Shown: positions 29,168 to 53,549 of the stretch, in pieces
Numbering within the stretch: position 1 is the stretch's first letter
Layout: every line of letters starts with the position of its first letter
NCBI GenBank assembly: GCA_000237975.1
Contig: CP003179.1
Location: 558,001-622,000, forward strand
From: Sulfobacillus acidophilus DSM 10332
GTDB taxonomy: Bacteria; Bacillota; Sulfobacillia; Sulfobacillales; Sulfobacillaceae
Length of the DNA: 64,000 nucleotides
Reading direction: 5' to 3'
Notes under the pieces: model-generated
What the model was told of the DNA's origin: nothing
What the model saw: only the letters and a program-made list of their open reading frames with translations
Database searches by the model: none
Program-made: the position numbers and the translations under genes

Positions 29168-29764
29168 TTGGATGACATCCAGCGTCAATTGCGGGTTCTC
29201 GCCCATCCCTTACGCCTGCAAGTACTGAATGCATTAGAGAATCACCGACGGGCGACGGGCAAACAACTTGCCGATATGTTACAGGTACCTCCGGCCCGTC
29301 TGCACCACCATCTCAAAATGCTTGAACGGGCGAACTTAATTTATATCGATGAAGAAGTCCCGCGCGGTGGAGTTGTCGAAAAGTATTATCGTTTGCGCAA
29401 CACGCCGATTCGGCCGCCGCGACAACTCTTTGAACATCCCGACCCTGGAATTCGTGCGGCGGCCTGGCAAACGGCGGTTTTGGAGCTGCCGACACTGTTT
29501 CACAGCGCGTTACAGCGCCTCGCTCATCTGTCTGAAGGAGTCGACAATCCCGTGAGCGGAGAGATCGCGGCGTGGGACACATGGGACTTGACACGGGAGC
29601 AGGCCGAACGCATTGCATTACTCCTCGAAGCAGCATGGTATGAAATCTCACAAGTAGTCACGGTACCGACAGACCCTGGAATGCATCGATTCCGCTTCTC
29701 TGTGTTTGTCGGCACATTTTTGCGGGAATCCGATAGTGGAACCGATAGAATAGAAAACTCATAG
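29168..29764 (+). CDS. ArsR-type winged-helix regulator
   Basis: 198 residues. The N-terminal 70 form a winged helix of the ArsR/HTH_20 type: LAHPLRLQVLNALENH, TGKQLADMLQVPPARLHHHL, LERANLIYIDEE. The C-terminal part is a predicted sensor or dimer domain with no metal-type Cys cluster. The likely start is the TTG at 29168 with AGGAG 12 bases upstream. It is the first gene of the oxoamine-synthase cluster, 21 bases before the next gene, so it probably controls that operon. Confidence 0.8.
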   Translation: MDDIQRQLRVLAHPLRLQVLNALENHRRATGKQLADMLQVPPARLHHHLKMLERANLIYIDEEVPRGGVVEKYYRLRNTPIRPPRQLFEHPDPGIRAAAWQTAVLELPTLFHSALQRLAHLSEGVDNPVSGEIAAWDTWDLTREQAERIALLLEAAWYEISQVVTVPTDPGMHRFRFSVFVGTFLRESDSGTDRIENS

Positions 29765-29785
29765 GAAGGGAGAGAAATAGGATTC

Positions 29786-31015: not shown

Positions 31016-31016
31016 G

Positions 31017-33251: not shown

Positions 33252-34120
33252 CGCCTCCACCGAATCCGGTCGTCTGTATTACGGGGTCTTCCAGTGGTTT
33301 TGGACTGGAAGCAACGATAGCATTTGCCCGTCGTGGATACACCGTAGTGGCTACCATGCGTGATGTATCACGCCAGACGGCCTTGGTCGCTCGTCTGACC
33401 CCGTTAGGGCTGCTGTCACGCGTTCTAATTGTGCCGTTGGACGTCACCGATGCGGCAAGTATCCGTGCGGCCGTGGATACCATCGACCAACGCCTTGGCT
33501 GCATAGACGTCTTGGTCAATAACGCAGGTATTGCGGTCGGGGGATTTCTGGAAGAAACATCAGAGGTGGCATGGCGCCGCCTGCTAGAGACTAACCTTCT
33601 CGGTGCGGTCACGGTGACCAATACCGTCCTTCCGATGATGCGTGCGCAACAACAGGGACGGATTATCTTTCTCTCTAGTCTTGGGGGCTTGGTACCGACG
33701 CCGTTTTTAGGGGCGTATTGCGCCGTCAAGTTTGCGCTCGAAGGTTATGCGGAAACACTACGTCTGGAACTCGCGCCATTTCACGTAGACGTTGTGCTGG
33801 TCGAGCCAGGCGCTTTTCAGACTTCCATCTGGCAAACCCCGCTGACGAATGAGCGAACGATCCCAGATTATGATCATGTTCGTGACTCGTTTATGACCTT
33901 ATATCAGGAAACCTTGTCAAAGCATCTGAAAAATCCGCAAGTTGTAGCTAATCGCCTTGTCTCGATCGCAATGACCCGACATCCGCGACTCCGGTATCCT
34001 ATCGGGTTTGATGCGTGGCAAGAAATTTACCTACGCAAATTATTGCCCTGGCGATTATACGAACAGCTTATCAGAAAAATCCTCAACCTCGAACCCCGAG
34101 GTTCCGGGGGCAACAAGTGA
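33248..34120 (+). CDS. short-chain dehydrogenase/reductase
   Basis: 290 residues from the ATG at 33248, which overlaps the MFS stop (ATGA). Classical SDR features: cofactor loop GSSSGFGL (TGxxxGxG type, residues 12-19), LVNNAG, catalytic Ser in FLSSLGGLVP and YxxxK in YCAVKFALEG. An Arg after the first strand region (MRD) hints at NADP(H). In this operon it probably reduces the keto group formed by the oxoamine synthase, the reaction 3-ketosphinganine reductases catalyse. The extended C-terminus (about residues 215-290) is typical of retinol-dehydrogenase-like SDRs. Confidence 0.85.
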   Translation: MTPPPNPVVCITGSSSGFGLEATIAFARRGYTVVATMRDVSRQTALVARLTPLGLLSRVLIVPLDVTDAASIRAAVDTIDQRLGCIDVLVNNAGIAVGGFLEETSEVAWRRLLETNLLGAVTVTNTVLPMMRAQQQGRIIFLSSLGGLVPTPFLGAYCAVKFALEGYAETLRLELAPFHVDVVLVEPGAFQTSIWQTPLTNERTIPDYDHVRDSFMTLYQETLSKHLKNPQVVANRLVSIAMTRHPRLRYPIGFDAWQEIYLRKLLPWRLYEQLIRKILNLEPRGSGGNK

Positions 34121-36375: not shown

Positions 36376-36429
36376 ATGCGCCTACGGCCGACGAACGCCG
36401 GATCTGTGTTTGGTTCGGTTCCGGGTTAA
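36376..36429 (+). CDS. candidate 17-residue ribosomal precursor peptide (locus 1)
   Basis: The mini-gene encodes MRLRPTNAGSVFGSVPG. GGGAGGTGATTT stands eight bases before the ATG, an unusually strong site for so short a frame. A G/C hairpin and a ThiF-like enzyme gene follow, the order seen for mccA-hairpin-mccB in microcin C operons. Microcin C peptides are 7 to about 20 residues, begin MR/MK in several cases and end in Asn; this one begins MRLR but ends in Gly, and Asn is at position 7. Adenylation of a C-terminal Gly is what E1-like enzymes do in other pathways. Expression is unproven. Confidence 0.55.
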   Translation: MRLRPTNAGSVFGSVPG

Positions 36430-36449
36430 TTTATATTTGGAGAAAACAA

Positions 36450-36473
36450 TTAGAGGGGGGTACGCCCCCCTAA
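36450..36473 (+). promoter_or_regulatory. G/C hairpin between mini-peptide and thiF (locus 1)
   Basis: Seven base pairs (AGGGGGG with CCCCCCT) close a TACG tetraloop, flanked by a further TTA/TAA pairing. There is no T-run. It probably ends or stabilises the short peptide mRNA and lowers read-through into the enzyme gene. Confidence 0.65.
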
Positions 36474-36499
36474 TACAAATTGGTCCAGGGGGTGCGAGG

Positions 36500-37528
36500 A
36501 TGACCATCTTACGTCCCGTGTTAAAGCGAGCTATACCGTGGTTTTTGGTCCGCGATTTTGTGCAAATCGGAGAAGAACCTGGTTATACTTTCGCGGTGAC
36601 AGATGAGGTGTCACGGACGGTTGATTTGTTGGAGATGTTGGACGGGCGGTCGTTAGATGATGTGCTGACGGCAGCGCGCCGCCGATGGAAAGATGCCCAG
36701 GCCGATCGGTGGGTTTTAAACGCATTGGACACATTGCATTCTGCCGGGCTACTCACGGATGCGGCAAGTCGAATTCCTACTCATGACCGCTTGGCGTTGT
36801 TGGCGGACCGCTATAATGCCAATGTAAACTTCTGGGAATTAATGGATCCCAAGGGCCGCGGGTGGGCTATTCAAGAAGTTCTCGACCAGTCCCGTGTCGT
36901 GGTTCTCGGAGTCGGCGGTTTGGGCACTTATGTGAGTTTTGCTCTAGCCGGGGTCGGCATCGGTACGCTGACCCTGGTCGATTTTGATCGGGTGGAGGCC
37001 AGAAACTTAAATCGGCAAATCCTTTATACAGCCGCGGATATAGGCAAACCCAAAGTCGACGTAGCGCAGCAGCGTCTCCAAGACTTCCACCCGTCGATCA
37101 CCATCGGGGCCATTACAACACGAATTAGTGGGGCTAATGACTTATTTGAACCATTACAGGGCGCTACGTGGGTGGTGTGCGTGGCTGACACGCCAAGTAC
37201 CCAAATCCATCAGTGGGTTAATGAAGCAGCGGTGGCGTGTCGGGTCCCCGTTACCTTTGGCGGGGTATTAGGGCGGGTCGGCGTATATTCCACCATCATG
37301 CCGGACCAATCGGGCTGTGTGGCATGTCAGGCGCGCCAAATGACGGATGAACAACAAGCATTATGGGATGTGATGCAGCAGCGCCAATTCCAACGCGTAA
37401 ATGCTGCAATAGCGCCCCATGTCAGTATGTTAGCCGGCATTATTGTTAAAGACGTAATTCGTGGCTTGCTCCATGTGACCCCACATTCTCTCGGGGCCAT
37501 TTGCCATTATGATTTTAATGACCTGATC
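36500..37528 (+). pseudogene. ThiF/E1-like adenylating enzyme, C-terminally truncated (locus 1)
   Basis: About 343 codons from the ATG at 36500 (AGGGGGTGCGAGG upstream). Residues 1-95 look like the winged-helix peptide-recognition domain seen in MccB- and PqqD-type proteins (EVSRTVDLLEMLDGRSLDDV). Next comes the E1 Rossmann core: VVVLGVGGLGTYVS, LVDFDRVEARNLNRQ, GKPKVDVAQ, the catalytic-Asp region VCVADTPST and one zinc pair CVACQ. At 37526-37531 the sequence switches to an inverted IS110 fragment. The second zinc pair expected near the C-terminus is absent, so the enzyme is probably inactive. The frame stays open to 38170 only by chance. Confidence 0.8.
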
Positions 37529-38115
37529 GATCCGGTCCGTGTGACGACCGGCCCCCAGCCCTTTGAGGGCCGGATGAATGACGACCACTTGACGGGCATG
37601 GCGGATCAGGCGATCATAAATCGTGAACGCATTTCCGGTCGCTTCGATCGCCACCGCGGTTTCGGGCGTCAGCCGCGTCGCGACAAATTGGGCCCACTCG
37701 TCGGGCGTGTTGGAAAACCGGAAATGCGTCCCTTTTTGGCCGGGTTGAAAGACATAGCCATGAATATAATTTTTGTGCAGATCGAGTCCCATAAACTGCG
37801 TTATGCGCAGGCCCTCCTCTCCGAATTGTTGGTCGTGGGCGATGTCTGGTATCATTCCGTGCTTGTGGGCAATCACGTATCCGAGTCTCCGGCCATGCCG
37901 GCTCATGGGGGAGGTGCGCTGGGCGGAACGCACTCACACCGCACGCGAGTCCGGGCGACAAACGCCAGCCCATGTAAAAAGTCGAGACGTTCCACCCCGC
38001 GACATCGCACGAATCCACCCACGAGATGCCGAAGCATTCGAGGGAGATCCCGTCGATTCCTGCTCCGCACCCCGGGGCTTGATTCCCATCATACCCACAG
38101 CACCACACAGACATT
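37526..38115 (-). mobile_element. IS110-family element, 5' fragment
   Basis: Encodes the N-terminal DEDD domain of a different IS110 type: FMGLDLHKNYIHGYVFQPGQ, AVAIEATGNAFTIYD, HPALKGLGAGRHTDRID. The reading stops at that Asp, where thiF begins. The upstream end near 38115 is approximate. Confidence 0.7.
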
Positions 38116-38189
38116 ATCCCTAGAGAGAACGCTGGTGTTAAAAAAGAGTAATCCGATTTTTTGCCCCTAGACGACGTGCTATGGATGTG

Positions 38190-39110
38190 TTAGTTGGATG
38201 GGTGAGACCAAAGACTATGGACCCGTGAATTTAAAACTTGATTTGCGCGGGTGTACATGGATGAGAAGTTTCGAAGTTCGGGGATGGCTTGAGCAATGGT
38301 TCTAACTGCGCTTTGGCCTACGCCAACCAAAATTAACGTGCTGAGGATTTTGGCTGGTGAAAGGGGAGAACTTACGGTAAGTATTAACAAAAATAGCGTC
38401 ACAATCGCTACCAGTGGAGCTTGTATAAGGGATGCTACAGCATAGCCTCTAGCGTGAAAGTAAGCAGTATTAATCGTATGCAACAAAGTGTTAGAGAGAT
38501 TTGGTTGTTTAGCACCGCGTGCTTGCTGATAAGCGAGGAGGGCTTTTTGATTAGCGTCTGTTAATCGGATTAGTGGGCGGCTGACAGTGGCCCAAACAAG
38601 GAATAGTGCGCTTCCAGCACCCAGTAGAGGAAGCAGAATTTCAGGGGCTATCAGACCGATTGCGACTACCGCAACGATTAATGCTGGAACTTGTTGCGCT
38701 ATATTTTCTACAGTTATTAGAAGGTGATTCGATGCTGGCCTCAACGACACAAAGACCGTGTCGTATTCTTCCGAGGAACGTAACCGGGGGACTGTTTGTA
38801 ACTGAATGGTTTTTATAATGCGGGCCCGTATCCACAGCTTGAGGGAGGCAAGAAGCTGAGTCGCAACCAAAAGGGCGCATATTATTTGGATAGCATGAAT
38901 TTTTTGGATTCGTGTACCATGAGCTAGATAGGAATATAAGTTCCCCAAGGCAAGCACATTTAAGTCCAAAACGATACCCAGTGCCATTGCGGTCGAGATG
39001 AGGATCAGTAGAATTCCAGTAAATGCCTCTAAAAGGGATCGTAGAAACGTGAATGCTGCTGTATATTGGGAGAGACGTCGAGAAATCGTGTCGATCATTG
39101 CTACTCTCAC
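38190..39110 (-). CDS. six-helix membrane protein like an ABC-exporter transmembrane domain
   Basis: 306 residues with about six hydrophobic segments in the spacing of a type-I ABC exporter, but no nucleotide-binding domain. The GTG at 39110 follows AAGGAG eight bases upstream. It diverges from the ABC gene set at 39247-41526 and may work with its ATPase. Codon use is AT-rich, unlike the flanks. I do not recognise a specific family. Confidence 0.55.
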   Translation of the reverse strand: MRVAMIDTISRRLSQYTAAFTFLRSLLEAFTGILLILISTAMALGIVLDLNVLALGNLYSYLAHGTRIQKIHAIQIICALLVATQLLASLKLWIRARIIKTIQLQTVPRLRSSEEYDTVFVSLRPASNHLLITVENIAQQVPALIVAVVAIGLIAPEILLPLLGAGSALFLVWATVSRPLIRLTDANQKALLAYQQARGAKQPNLSNTLLHTINTAYFHARGYAVASLIQAPLVAIVTLFLLILTVSSPLSPAKILSTLILVGVGQSAVRTIAQAIPELRNFSSMYTRANQVLNSRVHSLWSHPSN

Positions 39111-39181
39111 GAATGCACTCCTTATTTCAAAACACCTTAATTAAATAACTATATGCAAATATAGTGGCATGCGAAAAAATG

Positions 39182-39210
39182 AGATTGGCCAGTTGCTGAC
39201 TGGCCAATCT
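39182..39210. repeat. 12-bp-arm inverted repeat between divergent transport genes
   Basis: Arms AGATTGGCCAGT and complement around TGCTG. It lies in the 136-bp spacer with AT-rich DNA on the minus-strand side; it could be a shared operator or a leader hairpin for the gene at 39247. Confidence 0.65.
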
Positions 39211-39246
39211 TGCGTTTCATCTTAAACAATTATAGGAGGTGCGAGA

Positions 39247-39411
39247 GTGCAATTATTGGCTAAAATAGTGCTAGTTATAGGCATGGTGATTTTTATTATA
39301 GGTCGTTTCATGGGACATCGCGAGTCAACGGTTCAAATGGCTGGGGTCGTCATAATTTTTGTAGGTGCTGGCCTCGCAATGTATAGCGTACGGAAGGGGC
39401 GTGGTGGATAA
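39247..39411 (+). CDS. 54-residue two-helix membrane protein
   Basis: The GTG at 39247 directly follows ATAGGAGGTGCGAGA, an excellent ribosome site. The product has hydrophobic segments at about residues 4-17 (KIVLVIGMVIFIIG) and 29-45 (VVIIFVGAGLAMYS) and a basic tail RKGRGG. It is one base from the ABC ATPase gene. Small proteins of this kind often act as immunity or transporter-accessory proteins. Confidence 0.65.
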   Translation: MQLLAKIVLVIGMVIFIIGRFMGHRESTVQMAGVVIIFVGAGLAMYSVRKGRGG

Positions 39412-39412
39412 G

Positions 39413-40108
39413 GTGAGTAAGAATGGTGATGATGTAGCTTTCCGCTGCGAAAACCTTGCCTTATCGTTTGGATCGACGGTGGTATGGAAAGACGTTAATG
39501 TGACTATTTCGTTAGGTTGTGTTATCGGACTAATTGGACTTAATGGCAGCGGGAAGACATCGTTTCTCCGGACACTTTCGGGGTTACTGGCTCCTACGGG
39601 CGGAATGGTTACTGGTGTAGGATACGCTGCGAAGCCGTCGATCCATCATTGCGTGTTACTGGAGGAAACCAATCTTTTCTATCCTCAGCTTACATGTCAA
39701 GAAATGGTTGAGTTTTATGCGGGAGTGGCAGGTGCAAGGAGCGCGCAAATGGAGTCTTTGGTGCAGGAACTAGGGTTATTGCCCGTTATACATCATCGTG
39801 TGCAGGCGTTGTCTCAAGGGTATCGTACTCGTCTCGCACTAGCATTTCCCTTGATGTCGCCAGCTCGAGTTTTACTACTTGATGAGATCTTTAACGGCCT
39901 AGATGTAGTCGCGATCGAGTTGATCAAGAATGTCTTCCAAAGGGAAGCCATGAATGGACGAACCATCATCGTATCTAGTCACCAACTCGAGGTGCTTGAT
40001 AAGATGGCCGATACGTTTCTAGTTATTCACAATCAAACGATTGATGCCATTGCACCGACCGATATAAGAGGAAAATACGGCAGCTTACAAGCACTGCTTA
40101 CGCAATAA
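39413..40108 (+). CDS. ABC transporter ATP-binding protein
   Basis: 231 residues. Walker A LIGLNGSGKTSF, signature ALSQGYRTRLAL, Walker B ARVLLLDEIFNGLD, switch His in IVSSHQLEVL. The Q-loop region is LLEETNLFYP. The GTG at 39413 is one base after the previous stop with AAGGGGC upstream. It resembles CcmA/NatA-like subunits that pair with large multi-helix permeases such as the next gene. Near a peptide-making locus, a self-protection or export role is likely. Confidence 0.88.
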   Translation: MSKNGDDVAFRCENLALSFGSTVVWKDVNVTISLGCVIGLIGLNGSGKTSFLRTLSGLLAPTGGMVTGVGYAAKPSIHHCVLLEETNLFYPQLTCQEMVEFYAGVAGARSAQMESLVQELGLLPVIHHRVQALSQGYRTRLALAFPLMSPARVLLLDEIFNGLDVVAIELIKNVFQREAMNGRTIIVSSHQLEVLDKMADTFLVIHNQTIDAIAPTDIRGKYGSLQALLTQ

Positions 40109-40131
40109 AGGTTTAACAGAGGACTGGAGAG

Positions 40132-41526
40132 ATGAGGACAGGTATTCTTATTTTTTATCATGAACTCAAAACTTACGGGATTGTAAGTCGGATGGAGCGA
40201 CTTGTTGCTATTGCCATCATTTTGGGAGTGGGTTTGACGCTTGGCTGGTTGGGTACTTTGCTTCGTAATGAGGTCGTAATTTCACGTCAGTTATTGGAGC
40301 ACCTAGTTGGACCAGGTCTTATGGTTCTTCCGATCACTGTTGGCGCGTATGGAGCATTAGGCATTTTACAGTATGTTAGCAATGAACGCCCTATTTACGA
40401 CTGGGCGGTGCGAGTAGGATTGCCGCGCCATACAGTCGGATGGGCTTTGGCGCCGTTGGTTTGGCTCTTGGGTGTGTTTGTAACCGAGTTATTTGGTGCA
40501 GCACTTGTTGCGATAGGTTTTCCTATAATATTTGCCTATACATGGGCATTAGATGGCTCCTTGTTGGGGCTATTTCTGGCGGTTTGTGCCGGTGTAGCGA
40601 TTTCTCATGTAGAGACTAATAGCATTCGCTTAGTGTTCCGAATTGTTATGTTGGTTGTCCTCGGTTTGGGGATTCGGACGGCGATTCCGTTCCGTTGGGG
40701 TTACCGTTTTGGGACTGTTTTTGCTGTTGTGATCTTAGTCATTCTGTTGATTGGACAGAAAATTATAATTAGTTGTATTAGTTATTCGTCAAGAACCGTT
40801 AAACGCGTCTCTCCAACCACTGTGAGGGCGACTCTTAAATGGACAGTGTTGAGTGGATATCGTAAGGCGGTAATTTTATTCTACCGAAATCGAGAACTGA
40901 ATTTAGCGACAATTCCAGGGGTTGGTACCTTAGCGGCTTTGCTTATCCTTTTGAGTAAGGCTCCCCATATTTCGGTACTTACTAGCGCGATTCCGTACGT
41001 GCTGTTCTCCATTACCACGAGCCACAACGTAACGAAAAAGTTTTGGCATATGGAGTTACCTCTATTTTCAGCGTGGAGATGGACGTCCTTTCCGATGCGC
41101 CAAGTGATGGGAGCTCTCCTCGTTGTTTGGGCGTACGTTTACCTCGCTATGTCTACAGTATTTGTTATATTGCGGCTTATCTTGCCGCCGCTGGGCCAAC
41201 TCGTGCATGTTGCACAAATACTATCTTTAGGCGTAACTGCTACGGGTATGGGCCTGGCGACTGGCGCCTTAGCCTTTGGGTTGGGGCTTCGCCGTAAATC
41301 GGGTGATACCGTTTTTACCGATTCAATTGGTAGTCCCGCGTTCCAGTTACCATTATTGGTGGCGATACTTCTTACTGTGGGCAACTCGACTTTAGGCTTA
41401 GAACTGGGGGTACCGATATTTATTGCTATCGGTAATGGTGTCGTGGCGTTGGTTGGCATAGTGATAGCGCGAAGTATTATTCAGCAAAAATTGCATCGAA
41501 TGATATATTTTAATGAAATGTCTTAA
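40132..41526 (+). CDS. multi-spanning membrane protein, probable ABC permease
   Basis: 464 residues with about twelve hydrophobic segments, 24 bases after the ATPase gene, with GGACTGGAGAG before the ATG. No ATPase or MFS motif. Size and position fit the membrane half of an ABC-2-like transporter. AT-rich composition is shared with 38190-40108, marking an island of foreign origin. Confidence 0.65.
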   Translation: MRTGILIFYHELKTYGIVSRMERLVAIAIILGVGLTLGWLGTLLRNEVVISRQLLEHLVGPGLMVLPITVGAYGALGILQYVSNERPIYDWAVRVGLPRHTVGWALAPLVWLLGVFVTELFGAALVAIGFPIIFAYTWALDGSLLGLFLAVCAGVAISHVETNSIRLVFRIVMLVVLGLGIRTAIPFRWGYRFGTVFAVVILVILLIGQKIIISCISYSSRTVKRVSPTTVRATLKWTVLSGYRKAVILFYRNRELNLATIPGVGTLAALLILLSKAPHISVLTSAIPYVLFSITTSHNVTKKFWHMELPLFSAWRWTSFPMRQVMGALLVVWAYVYLAMSTVFVILRLILPPLGQLVHVAQILSLGVTATGMGLATGALAFGLGLRRKSGDTVFTDSIGSPAFQLPLLVAILLTVGNSTLGLELGVPIFIAIGNGVVALVGIVIARSIIQQKLHRMIYFNEMS

Positions 41527-44686: not shown

Positions 44687-45490
44687 TTAAGGTAATTCGC
44701 GCCGTCCTGAGACCCTCAACTTCCGGTAAATATTGCGAACATGCGTTTTTACTGTGGTATATTCAATTTGGCATGATGTTGCAATATCCATGAGGGAGTA
44801 GTTTGCTTTTAGAAGATTATAAATTTCCTGTTCGCGCTGGGTTAATTCCGTTATCGACGATATGGTGTCTAGATTTCCTGTCTCGTCAATGGAGGGAGAA
44901 ACCGTTGGGGTTTGATTCGAACTGTCATTATGCGGGCGTACTTGCCTGATTGGGACATACCTCGTGGCGAATCTGCGTTTGACTTTGATGGATCCCTGAA
45001 TAGGGAGCCATGTAACCAGCGCATTTAAACCCATCCAGAAAACGAGAGCTTGGGTTGTGAATGCCATGTGAGTTACGGTATGTTGATAAAACCACAGGTA
45101 GAGGAGTAACAATTCGCTCAATCCTAATCCTAAAAATCCTCCGAGTACATCCCAATATAGCAATCCTTCGAATGATAGTGCTGGCAATAATGCCGGCGCA
45201 TCAGTTTGGGTCGTGGTGGAAAACTGCAGTAACATCACGCCCCAAGCCAAGGCGTCCAAAACCAAAGCCATACCCAAGACGATCTGAAAATATCGCCATT
45301 TTTTGGTTGTTCGGCCTACACCGACTAAAATTCCGGTATACAGTGCCACAAACCCCGCTGTTAACAAGACACCATGAACATGGGGCGGGGGAAATGCCAT
45401 CATGATCCAAAGAACGAATAATAAAACAACCCCACGGTATATGTTCACCCAATAAAAATGCTGGCGCTGTTGGCGTAAAGCCATTGTCAT
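44687..45490 (-). CDS. membrane-embedded LuxR-type regulator
   Basis: 267 residues from the ATG at 45490 (GAGGAGGG upstream). Five to six transmembrane helices (from VNIYRGVVLLFVLWIMMAF on) fill residues 10-170. A GerE/LuxR helix-turn-helix ends the protein: ELTQREQEIYNLLKANYSL, MDIATSCQIEYTTVKTHVRN, IYRKLRVSGRREL. There is no receiver domain. The integral membrane part probably senses a lipophilic or envelope signal. It is divergent from the ACP-KAS-ThiF operon 336 bp away and is its likely controller. Confidence 0.85.
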   Translation of the reverse strand: MTMALRQQRQHFYWVNIYRGVVLLFVLWIMMAFPPPHVHGVLLTAGFVALYTGILVGVGRTTKKWRYFQIVLGMALVLDALAWGVMLLQFSTTTQTDAPALLPALSFEGLLYWDVLGGFLGLGLSELLLLYLWFYQHTVTHMAFTTQALVFWMGLNALVTWLPIQGSIKVKRRFATRYVPIRQVRPHNDSSNQTPTVSPSIDETGNLDTISSITELTQREQEIYNLLKANYSLMDIATSCQIEYTTVKTHVRNIYRKLRVSGRRELP

Positions 45491-45767
45491 GTATGTCCCT
45501 CCTCGAATTAATCGGCGATGTCTAACGCCGACTCTGGCGGTTCTAGGCTTAGTTCGGGGCGACAAGGGGTTGCTGCGTAAAATTCGGAGTGCCACCGGAA
45601 AATACACAGGCAATGACAGGCCTATCGTGTTATTCTTCATGGATACTCCCAAATCCTGCTAATCTGCGACGAATACCGAGGATTAGTGCCGGAGGATATC
45701 GGGAGTACTTCCGACTCAGAACACATCCACAATGGTGTAGTCCTTTCAGTTACTTCAAAAATCATCC

Positions 45768-45796
45768 TTCTTGTCCTGGTGGTGGAGCCCTATAAT
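45768..45796 (+). promoter_or_regulatory. sigma-A-type promoter of the mini-peptide biosynthetic operon
   Basis: TTCTTG, 17-base spacer, TATAAT. The -10 matches consensus fully, the -35 partly, which suits activation by the neighbouring regulator. It lies 30 bases before the ACP start codon. Confidence 0.65.
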
Positions 45797-45826
45797 CAGG
45801 GCGAATTTCGTACGGAGGTAGCGATT

Positions 45827-46147
45827 ATGAACGAAGCACAAGTTACTCAGGTCCTAATCCGCACTGTTCAAGACATCAAACCATCCGAGCCGCAGATATC
45901 GGCTGTCACGTCGTTAGGAGAGCTGGATCTGGATTCTCTCGACACGTTGGAGTTGTTATATGCGTTGCAATCGTATGCCCCGGTCGCCCAAGACAACTTC
46001 TTAGACATTCCCGTCCCGGCGGATTGTCAACAATTAACCAACGGACTCACTGCTCGCACGGTTAGCGACGTCTTCCGACACGGAACCATTGGTGATTTGG
46101 CCCGAATCGTCATTCACATAGCTTCCCAAACTGGGGAGGTGCTGTAA
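45827..46147 (+). CDS. acyl carrier protein
   Basis: 106 residues, somewhat longer than a primary-metabolism ACP (about 78). The attachment Ser is in LDLDSLDTLELL (about residue 37), the usual DSL motif for 4'-phosphopantetheine. The loop before the last helix is longer than usual. ACGGAGGTAG precedes the ATG. Together with the next gene (KAS) and the AcpS-type transferase at the operon's end it forms a dedicated acyl-building set. Confidence 0.85.
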   Translation: MNEAQVTQVLIRTVQDIKPSEPQISAVTSLGELDLDSLDTLELLYALQSYAPVAQDNFLDIPVPADCQQLTNGLTARTVSDVFRHGTIGDLARIVIHIASQTGEVL

Positions 46148-46148
46148 G

Positions 46149-47363
46149 TTGTACCCCGCGACTGTGGCCGTTACGGGATTAGGAACGGTTACCGGCAGTG
46201 GAATCGGTCCGGGCTCCCTATGGAACGATGTCGTATCGGTCCGTCCGCGTGTCAGGTGCCTATCATTCGGCTCACGTAATTATCTAGGGGTATGTATTCC
46301 GGATCGGGAAGCTCTTCGTCATACCTGTTCAGACGTCGCTCGATATGATGATTTTACCTGGTTAGGATTTCTGGCTGCCCAAGAGGCTCTGTTCGACGCC
46401 GGGTGGGATACTCGACCCTCTAGCTTTACCCGGGCTGCAGTCATCATTGGCACCGCGTTTGGCGGTATAACAACAATTGAAGAAACATATCACGGCCTAT
46501 TTGTAGCCAAGCGTGAACGAACCCGGCCCCTAACGCTTCCTTCCGCAATGTCCAACAGCCTCGCCGGGATAATCGCCACGCGGTATCGCATGGAAGGGCC
46601 CAATTTAACTCTATCGACAGCTTGTTCATCGTCTGCACATGCCATTGGGCTGGGATGGCAATGGATTTCCCATGGGATATGCGATGTAGTGGTGGCCGGC
46701 GGGTCGGATGCTCCGTTGGTATCTGGTACCTATGCAAGTTGGGACGCGTTAAAAGTCTTAGCTCCCCTATGCGATCCGCCCGATGTTGCCGTTAAGCCGT
46801 TCGACCAACAACGGCGCGGATTAGTATTAGGAGAAGGCGCAAGTGTCATCGTATTAGAGGCCGGTCACCGAGCCAAGTTGTGGTCGCGGCCGCCGTTGGC
46901 CTTTGTCCGGGGCTATGGTGCCTCCGCTGACGCAAAGCATCTTACGCACCCCGATGCCAATGGCATGGCACGAGCCATGGAACAATGTTTAATCAGCGGT
47001 TCCTGCTCTCCGTCTGAGGTGGATTATATCCATGCACATGGCACAGGGACCCTATCTAACGACATGGCTGAATCAGCTGCAATACGGCATGTGTTTGGTA
47101 CGCCATCACCACCAGTCTCGTCGTCAAAGCCCATTACGGGACATACTATGGGCGCGGCGGGCTCAATCAGTGTCGCCGTTGCCATTTTGTCTCTCATGCA
47201 TCAGACGATACCTGCGACGGCTAATTTGCGACATATCGATCCCCAGTGCGAAGGCGTTCATCATGTCACGGAACCCTTGAAATCGCCGATACGGCGTGTC
47301 ATGGTGAATGCCTTTGGGTTTGGCGGAAACAATGCTTCGATTTTGATCGAGGCCGTCTCCTAA
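46149..47363 (+). CDS. beta-ketoacyl-ACP synthase (FabF/KAS II type)
   Basis: 404 residues; extends an ACP-bound acyl chain by decarboxylative condensation. The full Cys-His-His set is present: nucleophile in TACSSSAHAIG, HAHGTGTLSND, and ITGHTMGAAG; the C-terminal FGFGGNNAS is canonical. So it is an active condensing enzyme rather than a chain-length factor. The TTG at 46149 is chosen, one base after the ACP stop with GGGGAGGTG upstream. No ketoreductase or dehydratase accompanies it, so either host FAS enzymes complete the chain or a beta-keto acyl product is used. Confidence 0.9.
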   Translation: MYPATVAVTGLGTVTGSGIGPGSLWNDVVSVRPRVRCLSFGSRNYLGVCIPDREALRHTCSDVARYDDFTWLGFLAAQEALFDAGWDTRPSSFTRAAVIIGTAFGGITTIEETYHGLFVAKRERTRPLTLPSAMSNSLAGIIATRYRMEGPNLTLSTACSSSAHAIGLGWQWISHGICDVVVAGGSDAPLVSGTYASWDALKVLAPLCDPPDVAVKPFDQQRRGLVLGEGASVIVLEAGHRAKLWSRPPLAFVRGYGASADAKHLTHPDANGMARAMEQCLISGSCSPSEVDYIHAHGTGTLSNDMAESAAIRHVFGTPSPPVSSSKPITGHTMGAAGSISVAVAILSLMHQTIPATANLRHIDPQCEGVHHVTEPLKSPIRRVMVNAFGFGGNNASILIEAVS

Positions 47364-47395
47364 AGGCGCCGATGTAATTAAGGAGGTGAAATCAT

Positions 47396-47455
47396 ATGGT
47401 CTTGGAAATGGTGTCTATCATCAATCGGATTGAATTGGCCGATAAGTGCTGCTAA
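47396..47455 (+). CDS. candidate 19-residue ribosomal precursor peptide (locus 2)
   Basis: Encodes MVLEMVSIINRIELADKCC. AAGGAGGTGA, nearly a perfect Shine-Dalgarno, lies eight bases before the ATG, and a 12-bp hairpin separates the stop from thiF, exactly as at locus 1. The C-terminal Lys-Cys-Cys offers nucleophiles for acylation, and the free C-terminus is a target for adenylation. It lacks the C-terminal Asn of microcin C peptides. An internal ATG (codon 5) could give a 15-residue form. Presence of ACP, KAS and GNAT genes in the same operon suggests the mature product carries an acyl chain. Confidence 0.6.
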   Translation: MVLEMVSIINRIELADKCC

Positions 47456-47467
47456 TGACAGGTGAAA

Positions 47468-47494
47468 GGCTGAAGGGGGTGCCCCCCTTCAGCC
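47468..47494 (+). promoter_or_regulatory. 12-bp G/C hairpin between mini-peptide and thiF (locus 2)
   Basis: Perfect stem GGCTGAAGGGGG with its complement, three-base loop TGC, no T-run. It should stall or partially terminate transcription and protect the upstream 3' end, raising the peptide mRNA over the enzyme mRNA, as in microcin C operons. Confidence 0.8.
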
Positions 47495-47518
47495 CTCCGT
47501 GAGAGGAGGCGATTCAAG

Positions 47519-48634
47519 ATGTATTACCGTTTACGGACAGGATTATCCATCTATCAAGATGCAGTTGGTGACCTTCATTGTATGTTTCCTGCCACCGGCA
47601 CGGTTAAACATATCCGTTGTTCTGAAGACCTTATCGCTCTATTAAAAGTTATGCAGACGCCACAAACGTTAGACCACTTATATCGAATGGCATTTGCCGC
47701 CGATCCATCGCTGAGGCCCGAGGCAATCGCGCTTGTATTAGACCGGTTAATCGCTGAAGGAGTGATTACTCGGTCGGCCGACGAAGTTGAAGTCCCCCGC
47801 AGCAGTTTTGAGCTCTTTTTGCAAGAAGTAGCTCCCTTAGGTGCTGAGCAAGGGATTCGCGCCATTCAATCCGGAACAGCTATCATTATTGGTGTGGGCA
47901 CCGTGGGCAGTATCGTAGCGACTCTATTGGCTCAAAGCCAGGTTGGTCATTTGGTGGTGGTCGATTCCGATTGTGTCGAAGAGCGGAATCTGGAACGACA
48001 ATTAACGTATAGTCGCAACGACATCTTTCAAGACAAAGTCGCCATCTTGCGTCAGTTCATCACTGATCGGACAAACGTGCGAATGACAACGCACAAGAAC
48101 AAAGTCGAAAACGCCACGGATGTCTTCAACATATTGGAAAACGTGGAGCCTCCTGCGGTAGTCATTAACTGTGGCGACGAACCCTCAGTGGACATGATAG
48201 CGTCGTGGATTGACGAGGCCATTCAACGCCGAAACGTTCCTCTTCCATTTATTGCGGGCGGCGGTTATGCTGGCCATTTAGGATCTGTGGGCCCCACGTT
48301 TATCGAAGGGAAAACTATTTGCTGGAATTGCTATCAAGCCCAAATACATAACATTCGTTACAAGTACGGGTTGCCCGACTGGCATCTGATTGCTCATCGA
48401 CCCTTTCCCACGCATCAGCGGCCAGCCTTTGCGCCGTTAGGGCTTTTAGTGGCAAGCCTGATAGCCACGGAAGCTCTTGGCATATTGAGCGGCACCATTT
48501 CACCTTTGTTTGTGAATCGACATGCTGAGTGGAATCTCATGCGCAATGAATTCCTGTGGCATCCCCTGGAACCCCAGCCCGGTTGTTTGCGATGCGCTCT
48601 AGTGTCTTCTCGAACGGTGGGAGAACCGCGATGA
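47519..48634 (+). CDS. ThiF/E1-like peptide-adenylating enzyme (MccB-like)
   Basis: 371 residues; GAGAGGAGG before the ATG. Residues 1-95 are a winged-helix-like recognition domain; 115-300 form the E1 Rossmann core with IIIGVGTVGSIVA (ATP loop), VVVDSDCVEERNLERQ (Asp and Arg contacts), FQDKVA (Lys) and the catalytic-Asp region INCGDEPSVD. The two zinc pairs CWNC and CLRC are both present, unlike locus 1. There is no rhodanese or catalytic-Cys domain, so simple adenylation of a peptide C-terminus is the best guess, with AMP (or another nucleotide) left on or displaced. The stop overlaps the GNAT start (ATGA). Confidence 0.85.
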   Translation: MYYRLRTGLSIYQDAVGDLHCMFPATGTVKHIRCSEDLIALLKVMQTPQTLDHLYRMAFAADPSLRPEAIALVLDRLIAEGVITRSADEVEVPRSSFELFLQEVAPLGAEQGIRAIQSGTAIIIGVGTVGSIVATLLAQSQVGHLVVVDSDCVEERNLERQLTYSRNDIFQDKVAILRQFITDRTNVRMTTHKNKVENATDVFNILENVEPPAVVINCGDEPSVDMIASWIDEAIQRRNVPLPFIAGGGYAGHLGSVGPTFIEGKTICWNCYQAQIHNIRYKYGLPDWHLIAHRPFPTHQRPAFAPLGLLVASLIATEALGILSGTISPLFVNRHAEWNLMRNEFLWHPLEPQPGCLRCALVSSRTVGEPR

Positions 48635-49206
48635 ATGGACGATTAGTCAAACTTATAAGTTGGGAACACGATCATGTCGCGACGTACATAGAATGGTTGC
48701 AAAATCCTGAAGTCGCTCGGTTGACCCACATTATTACAAGGCCGGTGTCTCGGCGAGAAATTGAAGAGGAATTTCACGCATATTTTCAAGGGAAATCATC
48801 TGTTCAGCATTGCGCTATCGTTCATCGGACCACAGGGCAGTTATTGGGCAAAATTCATTGGGAAGAATGTCTTAAAGGTCCGGATGTATATGAAATGGGG
48901 ATCGTGATTGGCAAGCCGGATTGGTGGCGCATGGGTTACGGAGCGGAAGCCTGTCTCTTGGCCGGGGACATTCTATTCCATGAGATGAAGGCCCATAAAG
49001 TCATGTATCTCTGTGCCGAGTATAACACCCCAATGATTGAGTTGGGGCTCCGCAACGGGTTTGTTGAGGAAGGCCGCATTCGGGACAGATTTTATGTTAA
49101 TGGGCGATATTGGGATGGAATTTGGCTCGGCTTGCTCAAAGCAGAATACGACGCCCTCATGAATCGACTCATTCTGCGACTAGGAGGTACGTCGCATGAC
49201 ATTTAA
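48631..49206 (+). CDS. GNAT acyltransferase (RimJ/RimL-like)
   Basis: 191 residues from the ATG at 48631, which overlaps the ThiF stop. Fold landmarks: YIEWLQNPEV, the CoA-loop WWRMGYGAEACL, and YNTPMIELGLRNGFVEEG near the end. RimL-like enzymes acetylate N-terminal amines. In several lipopeptide RiPP families a GNAT takes a fatty acyl chain from an ACP instead; next to ACP and KAS genes this role is attractive here, with the peptide N-terminus or Lys17 as acceptor. Self-resistance by acetylation, as MccE does for microcin C, is the main alternative. Confidence 0.85.
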   Translation: MNGRLVKLISWEHDHVATYIEWLQNPEVARLTHIITRPVSRREIEEEFHAYFQGKSSVQHCAIVHRTTGQLLGKIHWEECLKGPDVYEMGIVIGKPDWWRMGYGAEACLLAGDILFHEMKAHKVMYLCAEYNTPMIELGLRNGFVEEGRIRDRFYVNGRYWDGIWLGLLKAEYDALMNRLILRLGGTSHDI

Positions 49207-51340
49207 TAAAAAAAAATCGCCGTCTTTTCATACGCGATTAGCGGTCGTCGTGATTGCGTTATGGTGCGTTCTCATTGGCTTCGGAATTCGTGGGTTTCAA
49301 GACCTTAGTCATCGCGTTAATACCACCGGACTACAAACCCCAGGCACTCCTTCCGCACAATACGTCCACTGGGTGCATCAGTTTTCACCGGCTATTAATG
49401 ATCTCACTTTGGATGTATTAATTCATCGTAGGAATACTGCCCAGGCCTTTAATTCATTTTCACCGCTGATTGCGGCGATTCATCACCATGTACCCCAATG
49501 GTCGGTGGAAGACATCCAACAACGCGGCCCGTGGACAGCTATCATCTGGTCAACGGGCACAGCTCATTGGATTCCGGCCTTAAGCCAATATGCCGCCTCT
49601 GAACAGACATTGACGGCAATAGTTCGGCATTTTGACCGCATCACGCAGGATACAACTTTCGTTACGGGGGCCGTTCCGCTTCAGTGGACCTTCTCACGTT
49701 TAGCGATCCGTGCTTTGGAGAATGCTGCGCGCTTTACCTTGCCGATGACGTTAATCTTGTTACTCGTGGTGTTTCAATCGTGGAGTGCTGCCCTATTCGT
49801 GCCATTAAGCGCCATGAGCGGGTCCCTTATCGGGCTCGGTGTGTTAGGATTATGGCCAACGTCCATCCCGGTCACTAGTTTTACCACCGAAGCGGGTATG
49901 ATGCTTGGCTTGGGTGTCGGTATTGATTATGGGATGATGTGGTGGGCATCCCTTCAACGTACGGACCCAGACACGAATATTGTAATCCGCTATGTTATGG
50001 CCCAACAACGTGTACGTCAGATGGTCATACCCGCCGCTGCCATTGTTATCCTTTCGCTTATGGCATTAATGTTTTTTTCTCAGCCGTTAATTACATCGAT
50101 TGCGCTCGGGGTCATATTTGCTGTAACAGGCAGTGCCATGGCCAGTTTAAGCGTACTCCCGGCGTTACTGTGGATCGTGCGGGCCCGTCCGAAGCGCCTC
50201 ACCAGTTTATCGGGAAAGCCAGCATTTTGGACACGCCTTCAAGGGTTCCTGCTGAATCGCTATCGCGTTGTTGCGGCGGGGGTCATCATTGTCTTGTTGG
50301 TCTTTAGTAGTGGAACACGGGCGTTGGTGTTATGGGAACCTGGGGTTGCCACCTTACCGCAATCAGAGTCGGCGGTCCAAGGATTTCGCATCCTTCAAAA
50401 GCAATTCCCGATTGCGGCCGGGGCACCGATTATGGTTGCAATTGGTCCGCCCCACTCAGGAGGGAATATGTACAATCGCCGAGAATTTGGAAATGTACTA
50501 TCTTCGTTGCGTCATACGGAAGGCATTCGCCGTGTCCAGCCGATAACACCAATATTACCGGCCATGTCCAAAACACCCACGGTAACGAATCAACAACGCC
50601 GCGCAACAGTACACTTGGTTGCCGTCTGGTCATCTTTTCCTAATAGCAGTCCCCTAACGATTCGTTTAGTGCCGACATTACGACAGCGCCTGACCAATGG
50701 TTTTCAGCTGAAATCCATTGTCGGCGGCGGAGCGGCCGAAGTCTATGACGCAATTCACCGCGTATTTCATCGATTTCTTTGGGTTTTTGCGATCATATCA
50801 TTGGTGTCGGGCGCGGGACTCTATTGGCGGTTTCGTTCGCTGCTCATTTCCGTGTCTGCGATTATTTTTAACGCACTATCGACAGCGACCAGTCTGGGTG
50901 TTCTCATAGCGGTGTTTCAACATCACGCAGGCGCGTGGATGGGACTACCTAGTCCCGGAGCTCTTCAATGGACAACACCCGTTCTCCTATTTGCGATCTT
51001 ATATGCGGTAAGCACCGACTATGAAATTTTTTACGTGGAGGCAGTCAGCCATCACCGTCAAGCGAATCGACCCTTGCGGGAGCTACTTCTCGCTGGCACC
51101 CAGGAAACTGGCGGATTTCTCACCGGTGCCGCCATCATTATGGTGTCGGTGTTTATGGCATTTGGATTGTCCGGGCTCGAATTTATGCAAGAACTAGGTA
51201 TTGGTTTGTCCGTAGCCGTTCTCATAGACGCAACGGTTGTCCGCATGGTTCTCGTTCCAAGCTTTTTGTTGTGGTTCCAACAATGGTCCTGGTGGCCGGG
51301 AGGAAAGAAGCGCTCCCCCATGTTTCTGGAGGTGCCCTAA
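49196..51340 (+). CDS. MMPL/RND-type exporter
   Basis: 714 residues with two repeated halves, each a signal-anchor helix, a large extracytoplasmic domain and a five-helix bundle. The proton-relay motifs are GLGVGIDYGMMWW in the first and YAVSTDYEIFYVEAV in the second bundle. MMPL proteins move lipids and lipopeptides across the membrane (mycolates, PDIM, glycopeptidolipids in mycobacteria). That matches an acylated peptide product. It overlaps the GNAT gene by 11 bases, with CTAGGAGGTACG upstream. Confidence 0.88.
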   Translation: MTFNKKKSPSFHTRLAVVVIALWCVLIGFGIRGFQDLSHRVNTTGLQTPGTPSAQYVHWVHQFSPAINDLTLDVLIHRRNTAQAFNSFSPLIAAIHHHVPQWSVEDIQQRGPWTAIIWSTGTAHWIPALSQYAASEQTLTAIVRHFDRITQDTTFVTGAVPLQWTFSRLAIRALENAARFTLPMTLILLLVVFQSWSAALFVPLSAMSGSLIGLGVLGLWPTSIPVTSFTTEAGMMLGLGVGIDYGMMWWASLQRTDPDTNIVIRYVMAQQRVRQMVIPAAAIVILSLMALMFFSQPLITSIALGVIFAVTGSAMASLSVLPALLWIVRARPKRLTSLSGKPAFWTRLQGFLLNRYRVVAAGVIIVLLVFSSGTRALVLWEPGVATLPQSESAVQGFRILQKQFPIAAGAPIMVAIGPPHSGGNMYNRREFGNVLSSLRHTEGIRRVQPITPILPAMSKTPTVTNQQRRATVHLVAVWSSFPNSSPLTIRLVPTLRQRLTNGFQLKSIVGGGAAEVYDAIHRVFHRFLWVFAIISLVSGAGLYWRFRSLLISVSAIIFNALSTATSLGVLIAVFQHHAGAWMGLPSPGALQWTTPVLLFAILYAVSTDYEIFYVEAVSHHRQANRPLRELLLAGTQETGGFLTGAAIIMVSVFMAFGLSGLEFMQELGIGLSVAVLIDATVVRMVLVPSFLLWFQQWSWWPGGKKRSPMFLEVP

Positions 51341-51808
51341 ATGGTGTTGCATCCCCTCACATTTGTGGTGTTAGGACTGGCTTGTTTTCGCTTAACCCAT
51401 TTGATTGTTGTAGAAGAAATTACAACATTCCTTCGAACCCCCTTTGTTGACGCTGTTAACGAACGGGATGCCCGTGGACGGTGGATTAAACTCCAATACC
51501 CAAAACCGCATCGTATTCGTGGGTTTATTGGGGCTCTTCTGAGCTGTCCTTGGTGTACGGGAATCTGGGTGGGCATTGCACTGGTAATGGGATGGTATAC
51601 GGTTCCGCATGTGGTGTTTCCCGTGGCATTAATCTTTGCCGTTTCCGGGCTCGGGGTCATTGCCGAAATGGCGACTCAATATTGGAATCGTAATAGCTTT
51701 AGTCCCACACCGGAACAGATCGCTCGCATTAATGCCATCAACGCTTTGCTGGAATATGGCACTGCAACCCGTAGTCCAGCCGAGGCAAACAAGGATTCCG
51801 TGCGATGA
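51341..51808 (+). CDS. DUF1360 membrane protein
   Basis: 155 residues, starting directly after the MMPL stop. Family features: LACFRLTHLIVVEEITTFLR, a short basic loop, then LLSCPWCTGIWVGIALVMG and a further helix. DUF1360 proteins occur in spore formers and actinobacteria with no established role. Its fixed place among the export genes suggests an accessory or immunity function. Confidence 0.75.
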   Translation: MVLHPLTFVVLGLACFRLTHLIVVEEITTFLRTPFVDAVNERDARGRWIKLQYPKPHRIRGFIGALLSCPWCTGIWVGIALVMGWYTVPHVVFPVALIFAVSGLGVIAEMATQYWNRNSFSPTPEQIARINAINALLEYGTATRSPAEANKDSVR

Positions 51809-53184
51809 TGCCACGTCAAACGTTAATCATCGTGGGGAGTGCCGCCATGTGTGTGGGCCTTTCTGCTTTGGATATGTCGATTACCACTATAGCCGCGCCG
51901 CGTATTGTCGCGTCACTTCGCGGACCCATCACGCAAGTCGCCTTGATCTTCGCGACCTACCTTGGCGCAGCGGTTCTGATATTACCCTGGAGTGGAGTGT
52001 TAGCGGATCGATGGTCGAGTCCAGGAGTATTAATCGGCGGTTTAGCGTTATTTGGTGTCGGATCGGTCGGATGTCTTATTGCACCCAATTTTCTCGTGTT
52101 TTTACTATCACGAACCGTTCAAGGTTTGGGTGGCGGGGTCCTCATGGTTTTACCGATGACGATAATCGGCCAACGGTACGCTCCCAATGAACGGCCTCGA
52201 TGGCAAGGGATTTTGGCTGCAGCCTACGGATTGGCCACATTAGTCGGGCCCCCTCTCGGCGGATGGATTACTACGGTGTTCGGCTGGCGGTGGATTTTTG
52301 GATTGAACTTACCGCTAACTGCAATAGCCCTAGTTGGAGGGAGCGGCATCCCAAGTCACCGGGGCTCGTCAGGAGAATCACCACATTGGACGAATTTAGT
52401 TCTCTTTAGTGGTATCGTGGGATTCATTTTACTGTTAACGACGAGACATTGGTCTGCGATGGAGTACGGGGTATTTATCGTCGGACTGCTCATCCTCGGT
52501 GTACCGTTTGTTCAACAAGTGCGAAATAGACAGAGTAGTCTATGGCCTCAAGAATTAGAGGAATCCCTAATCATCTCTCGGGGATTTTTGCTCATGTTTC
52601 TCATTGCAGCCAGTATCGAAATGGGTGCAGTCTACTCGCCGCTACTCTTTCAGCGAATTTTTTTGATCACTCCTCAACAGACCGGAATATGGTTGATTCC
52701 GATGTCTTTAGTGGCGATTTTAGCCAGTCTTTGGAGTGGTAAATGGATGACAGAAACCGGGCTTTATCGACGCTTGCTGATTGGAGCCCAGTTCATTATG
52801 GTGTTCGGACTAATGCTGGCAACACTCAGCCTGGTAACCCATATATTAGGGATTTTGGAAATTAGCACTCTGCTTTTTGGACTGGGTTTGGGACTTCAAC
52901 AACCTATTTTAGCCGTCGTTATCCAAGCGGCTACTCCAGATACGTATATTGGTCGTATGTCATCTCTGTTACCTCTGGTTTGGAATGTGGGGGCGTTAGT
53001 GGGAATTTTGATATCGTCGTTCGCTCTCGCCTTATTCCATGGATTATGGGGATGGGTCACATTGTACCTCATGGCGTCGGCTATCTTGTTATTAACGGTT
53101 GGGATTGCCATTCGCTTGCCTTACCGAAGCATACTTGACGTTACCTCTCATTCGGAAAACGCTTCAGGGGGGTATTCGGTGTAA
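51805..53184 (+). CDS. DHA2-type MFS exporter
   Basis: 459 residues and about 14 helices, a 4-base overlap with the previous gene. Motif-C-like and DHA2 features: SALDMSITTIAAPRI at helix 1, WSGVLADRWSSPGVL (motif A), VQGLGGGVLMVLPMTII, GPPLGGWITTVFGWRW. EmrB/QacA relatives export drugs and lipophilic compounds, so product export or self-resistance is likely. Confidence 0.88.
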   Translation: MMPRQTLIIVGSAAMCVGLSALDMSITTIAAPRIVASLRGPITQVALIFATYLGAAVLILPWSGVLADRWSSPGVLIGGLALFGVGSVGCLIAPNFLVFLLSRTVQGLGGGVLMVLPMTIIGQRYAPNERPRWQGILAAAYGLATLVGPPLGGWITTVFGWRWIFGLNLPLTAIALVGGSGIPSHRGSSGESPHWTNLVLFSGIVGFILLLTTRHWSAMEYGVFIVGLLILGVPFVQQVRNRQSSLWPQELEESLIISRGFLLMFLIAASIEMGAVYSPLLFQRIFLITPQQTGIWLIPMSLVAILASLWSGKWMTETGLYRRLLIGAQFIMVFGLMLATLSLVTHILGILEISTLLFGLGLGLQQPILAVVIQAATPDTYIGRMSSLLPLVWNVGALVGILISSFALALFHGLWGWVTLYLMASAILLLTVGIAIRLPYRSILDVTSHSENASGGYSV

Positions 53185-53549
53185 TGATTGGGATTGATGT
53201 GGTCGATATTGCGCGATTTGAACGCCGTTGGGACAACGCTTTTATGAATCAATTATTTACAAAGTGCGAGTTAGCCTATATTGAGCGTCAACCACGGCCG
53301 ACTCGAACTGCAGCTGGAATATTTGCCGCAAAAGAAGCTTTTTTAAAAGCCTTGCATCAACCCATTACATTAAAACGGGTTCAATTGATTGAAATACGTC
53401 ATAGAGACGATGGAGCGCCAGAAATTGTGATACATGAAGACGGTTTTCATCCATTTGACTTCGGAGGAATACATGTATCGATATCTCATACGGATTCCGT
53501 TGCTATGGCGATGGTCATGATCACGAAAAAGTGGAAACGGCAACAATAG
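53184..53549 (+). CDS. acpS: holo-ACP synthase
   Basis: 121 residues; transfers 4'-phosphopantetheine from CoA to the ACP Ser. Landmarks: MIGIDVVDIARFERRW with the metal-binding Asp, FAAKEAFLKAL, and IHVSISHTDSVAMA. The ATG overlaps the MFS stop by one base, so it is translationally coupled and dedicated to this operon. Together with the chromosomal copy expected elsewhere it would be a second AcpS. Confidence 0.92.
   Translation: MIGIDVVDIARFERRWDNAFMNQLFTKCELAYIERQPRPTRTAAGIFAAKEAFLKALHQPITLKRVQLIEIRHRDDGAPEIVIHEDGFHPFDFGGIHVSISHTDSVAMAMVMITKKWKRQQ

Follow-up and report, generated by a model that had tools for sequence, protein, structure and literature searches.

Organisation of the operon

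The DNA analysed here, hereafter the window, is a 64,000-nucleotide stretch of Sulfobacillus acidophilus DSM 10332 (positions 558001-622000 of contig C1; genome 3,557,831 bases, chromosome 3,472,898 bases), and it carries an operon of nine genes that all lie on the forward strand and end at position 53549. These encode, in order, an acyl carrier protein (ACP), a β-ketoacyl-ACP synthase (KAS), a 19-codon mini-gene product, a ThiF-like adenylyltransferase, a GNAT, an MMPL protein, a DUF1360 protein, an MFS protein and AcpS (Table 1). With roughly even confidence, we consider that this operon makes an acylated, probably lipidated, ribosomally synthesised and post-translationally modified peptide (RiPP) of the ThiF-like-adenylyltransferase kind, and the locus, which occurs in two acid-mine Sulfobacillus species, suggests a fat-tagged ribosomal peptide of an undescribed kind.

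The genes are separated by 1 nt (ACP-KAS), 32 nt (KAS-mini-gene) and 63 nt (mini-gene-thiF), MMPL and DUF1360 abut without a gap, and the remaining neighbours overlap by 4 nt (thiF-GNAT), 11 nt (GNAT-MMPL), 4 nt (DUF1360-MFS) and 1 nt (MFS-AcpS). A sequence-only reading of the window had listed the same nine genes, with this order, these overlaps and the stop-start contact, all of which the coordinates bear out. Its ACP start at 45768 is revised to the ATG at 45827, which is the better placement because it has a Shine-Dalgarno sequence (GGAGGT) and matches the start in Sulfobacillus benefaciens. The Pfam domains found on the operon proteins are PP-binding, ketoacyl-synt, ThiF, Acetyltransf_3, MMPL, DUF1360, MFS_1 and ACPS.

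The full operon, together with a divergent luxR-type gene, is present in the same order in S. benefaciens isolate AMDSBA1 (contig PXYT01000019.1). The housekeeping FabF proteins of the two species share 73% identity, and most operon proteins, the GNAT excepted, have therefore diverged more than FabF.

Conservation of the mini-gene

Between KAS and thiF, S. benefaciens has a 19-codon frame at the same position, which aligns without gaps and is preceded by the same ribosome-binding site, AAGGAGGTGA. The window peptide MVLEMVSIINRIELADKCC and its counterpart MVIEVISVTHRSELADKCC share 12 of 19 residues, the last seven (ELADKCC) being all identical, and the N-terminal half of both is hydrophobic with conservative changes (MV[LI]E[MV][VI]S[IV]). 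The monoisotopic mass of the window peptide is 2179.087 Da. The two frames differ at 17 nucleotides, with 5, 2 and 10 changes at first, second and third codon positions. The three that fall within the last seven codons are all third-position and synonymous. When 17 substitutions were placed at random in a simple simulation, 0.025% of trials kept the C-terminal heptapeptide identical without a premature stop, and 0.8% reached or exceeded the observed total identity. The intergenic stretch 3' of the mini-gene aligns poorly between the two species. Judged by its sequence conservation, the 19-codon frame is a real coding gene, beyond chance. The sequence-only reading had named homologous operons without a short frame between KAS and thiF as evidence against itself, and it survives because the S. 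benefaciens operon, the one homologue available, keeps the frame at the same place.

A 12-bp hairpin lies between the mini-gene and thiF, and in S. benefaciens a non-homologous 10-bp hairpin of unlike sequence occupies the same position (z = -2.0). No T-run follows the window hairpin and it is not among the terminator-like elements listed. We infer that it keeps the precursor transcript above the enzyme transcripts, which would allow precursor in excess of enzymes.

The ThiF-like enzyme

A PDB sequence search identified MccB as the best solved relative of the ThiF protein (E 5e-19), and in a fold search with its predicted model the top 24 PDB chains were all MccB, followed by PaaA, with the match running over the full length. 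The model has a mean predicted local distance difference test (pLDDT) score of 65 and shows strands at residues 2-5, 10-13, 19-23 and 28-32, followed by three helices and, after these, the adenylation domain. Residues R160, K173 and D220, aligned with MccB, are unchanged in the S. benefaciens protein, as are both CxxC pairs. The corresponding Arg, Lys and Asp are reported to be essential in MccB and EnfB (PMC12250964). By sequence and modelled fold the ThiF protein is thus MccB/PaaA-like, in agreement with the sequence-only reading.

The next best-scoring ThiF among those compared is encoded on a Lactiplantibacillus plantarum plasmid (26% identity over 98%), with a GGGYxGHxGxxGPT stretch in common. 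On this plasmid (NZ_CP028335.1, L035:7682-7858) two near-identical, unlisted 19-codon frames, MEKVSEVKVLAHEEKNGSC, end in Cys and precede the ThiF gene, with an MFS gene after it; these frames look like missed precursor genes, judging from their sequence and position. In a Sulfobacillus relative (G106, L029:220-1449) a short Cys-ending frame, MKIQVKKVEDVQTTCHVDQNC, likewise lies directly before an RRE-ThiF-like gene. Since the frames of both organisms end in Cys, a C-terminal Cys recurs among short frames beside this enzyme group.

Further observations concern other ThiF-like genes. Downstream in the G106 locus are a 433-aa protein that belongs to no Pfam family and another with weak resemblance to M50 peptidases. 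In two other genomes (G019 and G024; L031 and L032) short frames that carry stretches of 11-13 Cys precede RRE-ThiF-like genes and resemble precursors of thiazole/oxazole-modified microcins. The window itself holds a second, apparently decayed ThiF-RiPP cluster at 36376-41526, with a mini-gene, MRLRPTNAGSVFGSVPG, followed by an RRE-ThiF-like gene, an ABC ATPase and a permease-like gene; this ThiF-like gene is seemingly cut short near 37429, beside a transposase-like frame. The layout is as on Sporosarcina plasmid pA38H4, where a mini-gene, MKIRKLSNKQVSKTAVEPR, is followed by ThiF, ABC ATPase and permease genes. Two other roles for the operon were considered. Anti-phage defence was rejected, as the ThiF protein matches generic E1-E2 PADLOC models only and the other operon proteins have no PADLOC match, and no ubiquitin-like partner, as a ubiquitin-like conjugation system would have, was found in the operon.

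Putative acyl-building and export proteins

The KAS has an intact Cys-His-His triad (TACSS 157, HAHGTGT 295, KPITGH 327). The genome holds another AcpS (C1:2674388) and two further complete FabF-like KAS, and because of these other copies the operon AcpS and KAS look dedicated, as the sequence-only reading had supposed of the acyl-building set. In the MMPL protein, to which the mycolate exporter MmpL3 is nearest, the D-Y proton-relay pairs are kept (GIDYG 242, TDYE 607).

Table 1. Features of the operon and its immediate surroundings (window positions), with amino-acid identity to the S. benefaciens counterparts
Feature	Position	Strand	Evidence	Identity
LuxR-type regulator, divergent, N-terminal half hydrophobic	44687..45652	-	GerE domain E 6e-11; divergent beside operon in S. 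benefaciens too	50%
Acyl carrier protein, divergent, 106 aa, phosphopantetheine motif LDSLD	45827..46147	+	PP-binding E 1e-3, just under cut-off; LDSL kept in S. benefaciens	37%
FabF-like β-ketoacyl-ACP synthase, TTG start	46149..47363	+	ketoacyl-synt domain; C-H-H intact	54%
Shine-Dalgarno AAGGAGGTGA of mini-gene	47380..47389	+	identical in both species	
19-codon precursor-peptide gene, MVLEMVSIINRIELADKCC	47396..47455	+	S. benefaciens counterpart MVIEVISVTHRSELADKCC	
12-bp hairpin between precursor gene and thiF	47468..47494	+	fold z = -3.2; T-run absent	
ThiF-like adenylyltransferase, N-terminal RRE-like domain	47519..48634	+	PF00899 E 6e-28	47%
Single-domain GNAT (Acetyltransf_3), 191 aa, proposed acyltransferase	48631..49206	+	Pfam domain; most conserved operon protein	73%
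MMPL/RND exporter	49196..51340	+	PF03176 E 8e-28; MmpL3 best PDB match E 4e-39	48%
DUF1360 protein	51341..51808	+	PF07098 E 1e-32; second most conserved	69%
MFS exporter, DHA2-like	51805..53184	+	PF07690 E 1e-45; EmrB subfamily match E 5e-34, below cut-off	49%
AcpS (holo-ACP synthase), second in genome	53184..53549	+	PF01648 E 1e-16; AcpS homologue follows in S. benefaciens	

Distribution

With the GNAT as query, a pattern scan across 84,980 species yielded one further operon; its patterns were strict, and distant relatives may be missed. When 154 genomes of the class were surveyed with ThiF, GNAT and DUF1360, strong matches occurred in the same two genomes only, and among 398 genomes of the phylum a close ThiF was found only in the window's own. 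A genome-wide pattern scan with ThiF alone gave no match, missing the S. benefaciens copy too, because its patterns were too strict; alignment of ThiF to viral contigs found none. The operon therefore appears rare, and as the scans were strict in pattern or based on samples, distant versions may exist.

Proposed pathway and alternatives

Gene content, peptide conservation, the MccB-like fold, the presence of the catalytic residues and the extra AcpS and KAS are what we observe; from here on every reaction is inferred, together with the order of steps, the site of acylation and the substrate that is exported. A putative RRE domain in the ThiF protein would bind the hydrophobic N-terminus of the 19-residue peptide, and the enzyme, with ATP, would activate a carboxylate in ELADKCC, which could belong to a side chain (Glu13 or Asp16) or to the C-terminus. 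A Cys thiol would then attack the activated carboxylate to give a thiolactone, as made by GrcB, or another dehydrated cross-link; by this analogy the peptide is probably cyclised through Cys. AcpS would arm the dedicated ACP, and the KAS would build a particular acyl chain on it with host fatty-acid reductases and dehydratase, in the way of NodF and NodE in Nod-factor synthesis. The GNAT may move this chain from ACP to the peptide, at the conserved Lys17 or the N-terminus, and the MMPL and MFS proteins would export the product. The divergent LuxR-type gene is the probable regulator and would control expression.

Several observations weigh against an acylated RiPP. The strand/helix order of the ThiF N-terminus is the one expected of an RRE, in keeping with the RRE-like assignment of the sequence-only reading, although it comes from a part of the model with low confidence (pLDDT about 40-60). 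The nearest solved relatives of the GNAT are small-acyl transferases (SpeG/AAC6'/RimL-like), and for this reason we go no further than to say that it may carry out fatty acylation; its AlphaFold model (mean pLDDT 38) is too low in confidence to judge an acyl pocket. Furthermore, the GNAT has a single domain, unlike the tandem selidamide GNAT NpuN (PMC13060382). The ACP is the least conserved operon protein and the GNAT the most, which by itself gives no sign of close co-evolution between the two. Ketoreductase, dehydratase and enoylreductase genes are absent from the operon, so that any reduced chain would depend on host fatty-acid enzymes for its completion, and no leader peptidase is found among its Pfam matches. 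Finally, only two instances of the operon are at hand.

The same enzymes could be arranged differently, with the MccB-like enzyme activating the peptide C-terminus and passing it on to the operon ACP, whose phosphopantetheine would hold it as a thioester, after which the KAS would add a malonyl unit and the GNAT would cap the product. Such loading is chemically credible because MccB forms C-terminal peptide thioesters with small thiols when the terminal Asn is changed to Gly, although its active site excludes large thiol nucleophiles (PMC13255007). The KAS, ACP, ThiF and mini-gene adjoin, with the mini-gene between KAS and thiF, and the absence of reductive genes from the operon would also fit. 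On the other hand, a peptidyl-ACP-loading ThiF enzyme is undescribed in the literature examined, and the conserved CC and the MMPL protein would be left without a special role; we regard this route as unlikely. If true, a ribosomal peptide would be the starter unit of a fatty-acid/polyketide chain, giving a direct enzymatic bridge to carrier-protein assembly.

That the product is instead a microcin-C-like peptide-nucleotide seems to us quite unlikely. Here the MFS protein would be an MccC-like exporter and the GNAT an MccE-like self-immunity acetyltransferase, with ACP, KAS, AcpS and MMPL serving a second decoration. In its favour are MccB as nearest solved relative, the presence of MFS and GNAT genes and a precursor size (19 aa) equal to that of the B. 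amyloliquefaciens analogue (PMC12250964). However, the peptide ends in Cys, whereas the succinimide/N-P chemistry needs Asn; counterparts of MccD, MccE and MccF were not found in the operon, neither an S66 peptidase nor a HIT domain is among its Pfam matches, and direct BLAST gave no significant similarity of the GNAT to MccE (E 0.12), with E 3 for the MFS protein against MccC. Attachment of a nucleotide as in microcin C is disfavoured because C-terminal Asn, MccD/MccF and significant GNAT-MccE similarity are all wanting. The C-terminally adenylated and/or fatty-acylated mini-peptide of the sequence-only reading is supported as regards conservation of the peptide with the operon and unsupported as regards adenylation in the microcin C manner.

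Two further readings are in our view very unlikely. In one, the C-terminal Cys-Cys of a reusable scaffold holds a small molecule during its assembly and then lets it go, as in the TglA/pearlin pathways, which would suit a very short peptide with an invariant C-terminus and an operon without a leader peptidase; the PEARL/LanB-like ligase, protease and small-molecule tailoring genes are, however, absent from the operon by Pfam. In the other, the mini-gene is a regulatory leader frame with no peptide product, whose tandem Cys codons and hairpin would gauge the supply of cysteine and control thiF expression. Two Cys codons do stand beside the stop, with the hairpin 12 nt past it, but ELADK and the hydrophobic pattern are conserved in the protein while codons change synonymously, the hairpin lacks a T-run, the frame lies inside the operon and not ahead of its first gene, the short frames of related ThiF genes end in one Cys codon only, and an RRE-ThiF protein needs some peptide partner.

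Should the acylated RiPP prove correct, it would unite ThiF-like activation of a very short peptide with dedicated acyl-carrier/ketosynthase acylation, which are apart in the literature searched, and it would give the MMPL exporter and the DUF1360 protein a defined setting in an acidophilic genus. As the substrate has 19 residues and is easily synthesised, both the ThiF reaction on ELADKCC and acyl transfer by the GNAT are directly testable.

Other features of the window

Upstream of the ACP gene, at 45756-45766, an 11-mer, CAAAAATCATC, is common to both species; it is a possible regulator site, which on two sequences we do not take as an operator. A separate cluster at 29168-34120 contains a helix-turn-helix regulator, a pyridoxal-phosphate-dependent aminotransferase-fold enzyme (AONS-like), a 358-aa protein that matches no Pfam family, an MFS-like gene divided between two frames and a short-chain dehydrogenase. 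On the reverse strand, 62633-62721 matches a group II intron domain in Rfam (RF00029, E 1e-9).

Comparison with known systems

The sequence-only reading knew of no described family with this combination of genes, and our literature search likewise found no ThiF-type RiPP with an ACP/KAS/GNAT/MMPL set, although both halves are known separately. RRE-ThiF RiPPs form a large and established group, with 27,400 RRE-ThiF candidates in RefSeq (PMC12150305), and ThiF-like RiPPs have been described (PMC12250964, PMC12150305). Acylated RiPPs with dedicated fatty-acid synthase (FAS) or polyketide synthase (PKS) enzymes are known among lanthipeptides (PMC13060382, PMC9505594, PMC12076493), and GNATs lipidate other RiPPs (PMC13060382).

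Microcin C (MccA/MccB/MccC) resembles the operon in its very short precursor gene, placed directly ahead of the gene for an RRE-ThiF enzyme (RRE-like here), and in its MFS exporter, with MccB the closest solved structure, and differs in that both precursors here end in CC, not Asn, and ACP, KAS, AcpS and MMPL are added. The GRC-type RiPP of Streptococcus (GrcA/GrcB) combines a ThiF-like enzyme with a precursor whose C-terminal Cys is preceded by Glu, and GrcB links the Glu35 side chain to the C-terminal Cys39 as a thiolactone (PMC12250964), the linkage we propose by analogy. E13, C18 and C19 are invariant in the peptides of both Sulfobacillus species, with a spacing unlike Glu35-Cys39 of GrcA. 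The GRC system has a 39-residue precursor and radical SAM enzymes, whereas the present one has 19 residues and acyl-building genes, and no radical SAM enzyme is among the operon Pfam matches. Enterofaecin and Ind (EnfB, IndF) share a short precursor, an RRE-ThiF protein (RRE-like here) and ATP-dependent activation near the C-terminus, proposed here from sequence, but they have Trp/Ile C-terminal motifs and an ACP/KAS/GNAT/MMPL set is unreported there.

On the acylation side, lipolanthines, goadvionins and lipoavitides join a RiPP to an acyl chain from dedicated PKS/FAS enzymes by means of an acyltransferase, as we propose here. The operon has the dedicated ACP and ketosynthase that mark these FAS/PKS-RiPP hybrids (lipolanthine/lipoavitide), with a second AcpS. 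Class III lanthipeptide enzymes act there, whereas here there is a ThiF-like enzyme with a minimal ACP and KAS, and class III lanthipeptide synthetase and decarboxylase are absent from the operon by Pfam. In the selidamides (phaeornamide, kamptornamide, nostolysamides) a GNAT puts a fatty acyl group on Lys or Orn of a ribosomal peptide, for which the conserved Lys17 would be available here; these systems differ in their Proteusin/Nif11 leaders, tandem GNAT (NpuN) and acyl donors from primary metabolism, where the operon has a dedicated ACP, and in their lanthionine synthetase, which is absent from the operon by Pfam.

NodF and NodE of rhizobia are a dedicated ACP and KAS that rely on host FAS enzymes. 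Compared by description only, the NodF/NodE/NodA system parallels the operon in this dedicated pair, in the borrowing of host enzymes, in acylation of an amine and in dedicated export, and differs in its acceptor, which is a chitooligosaccharide.

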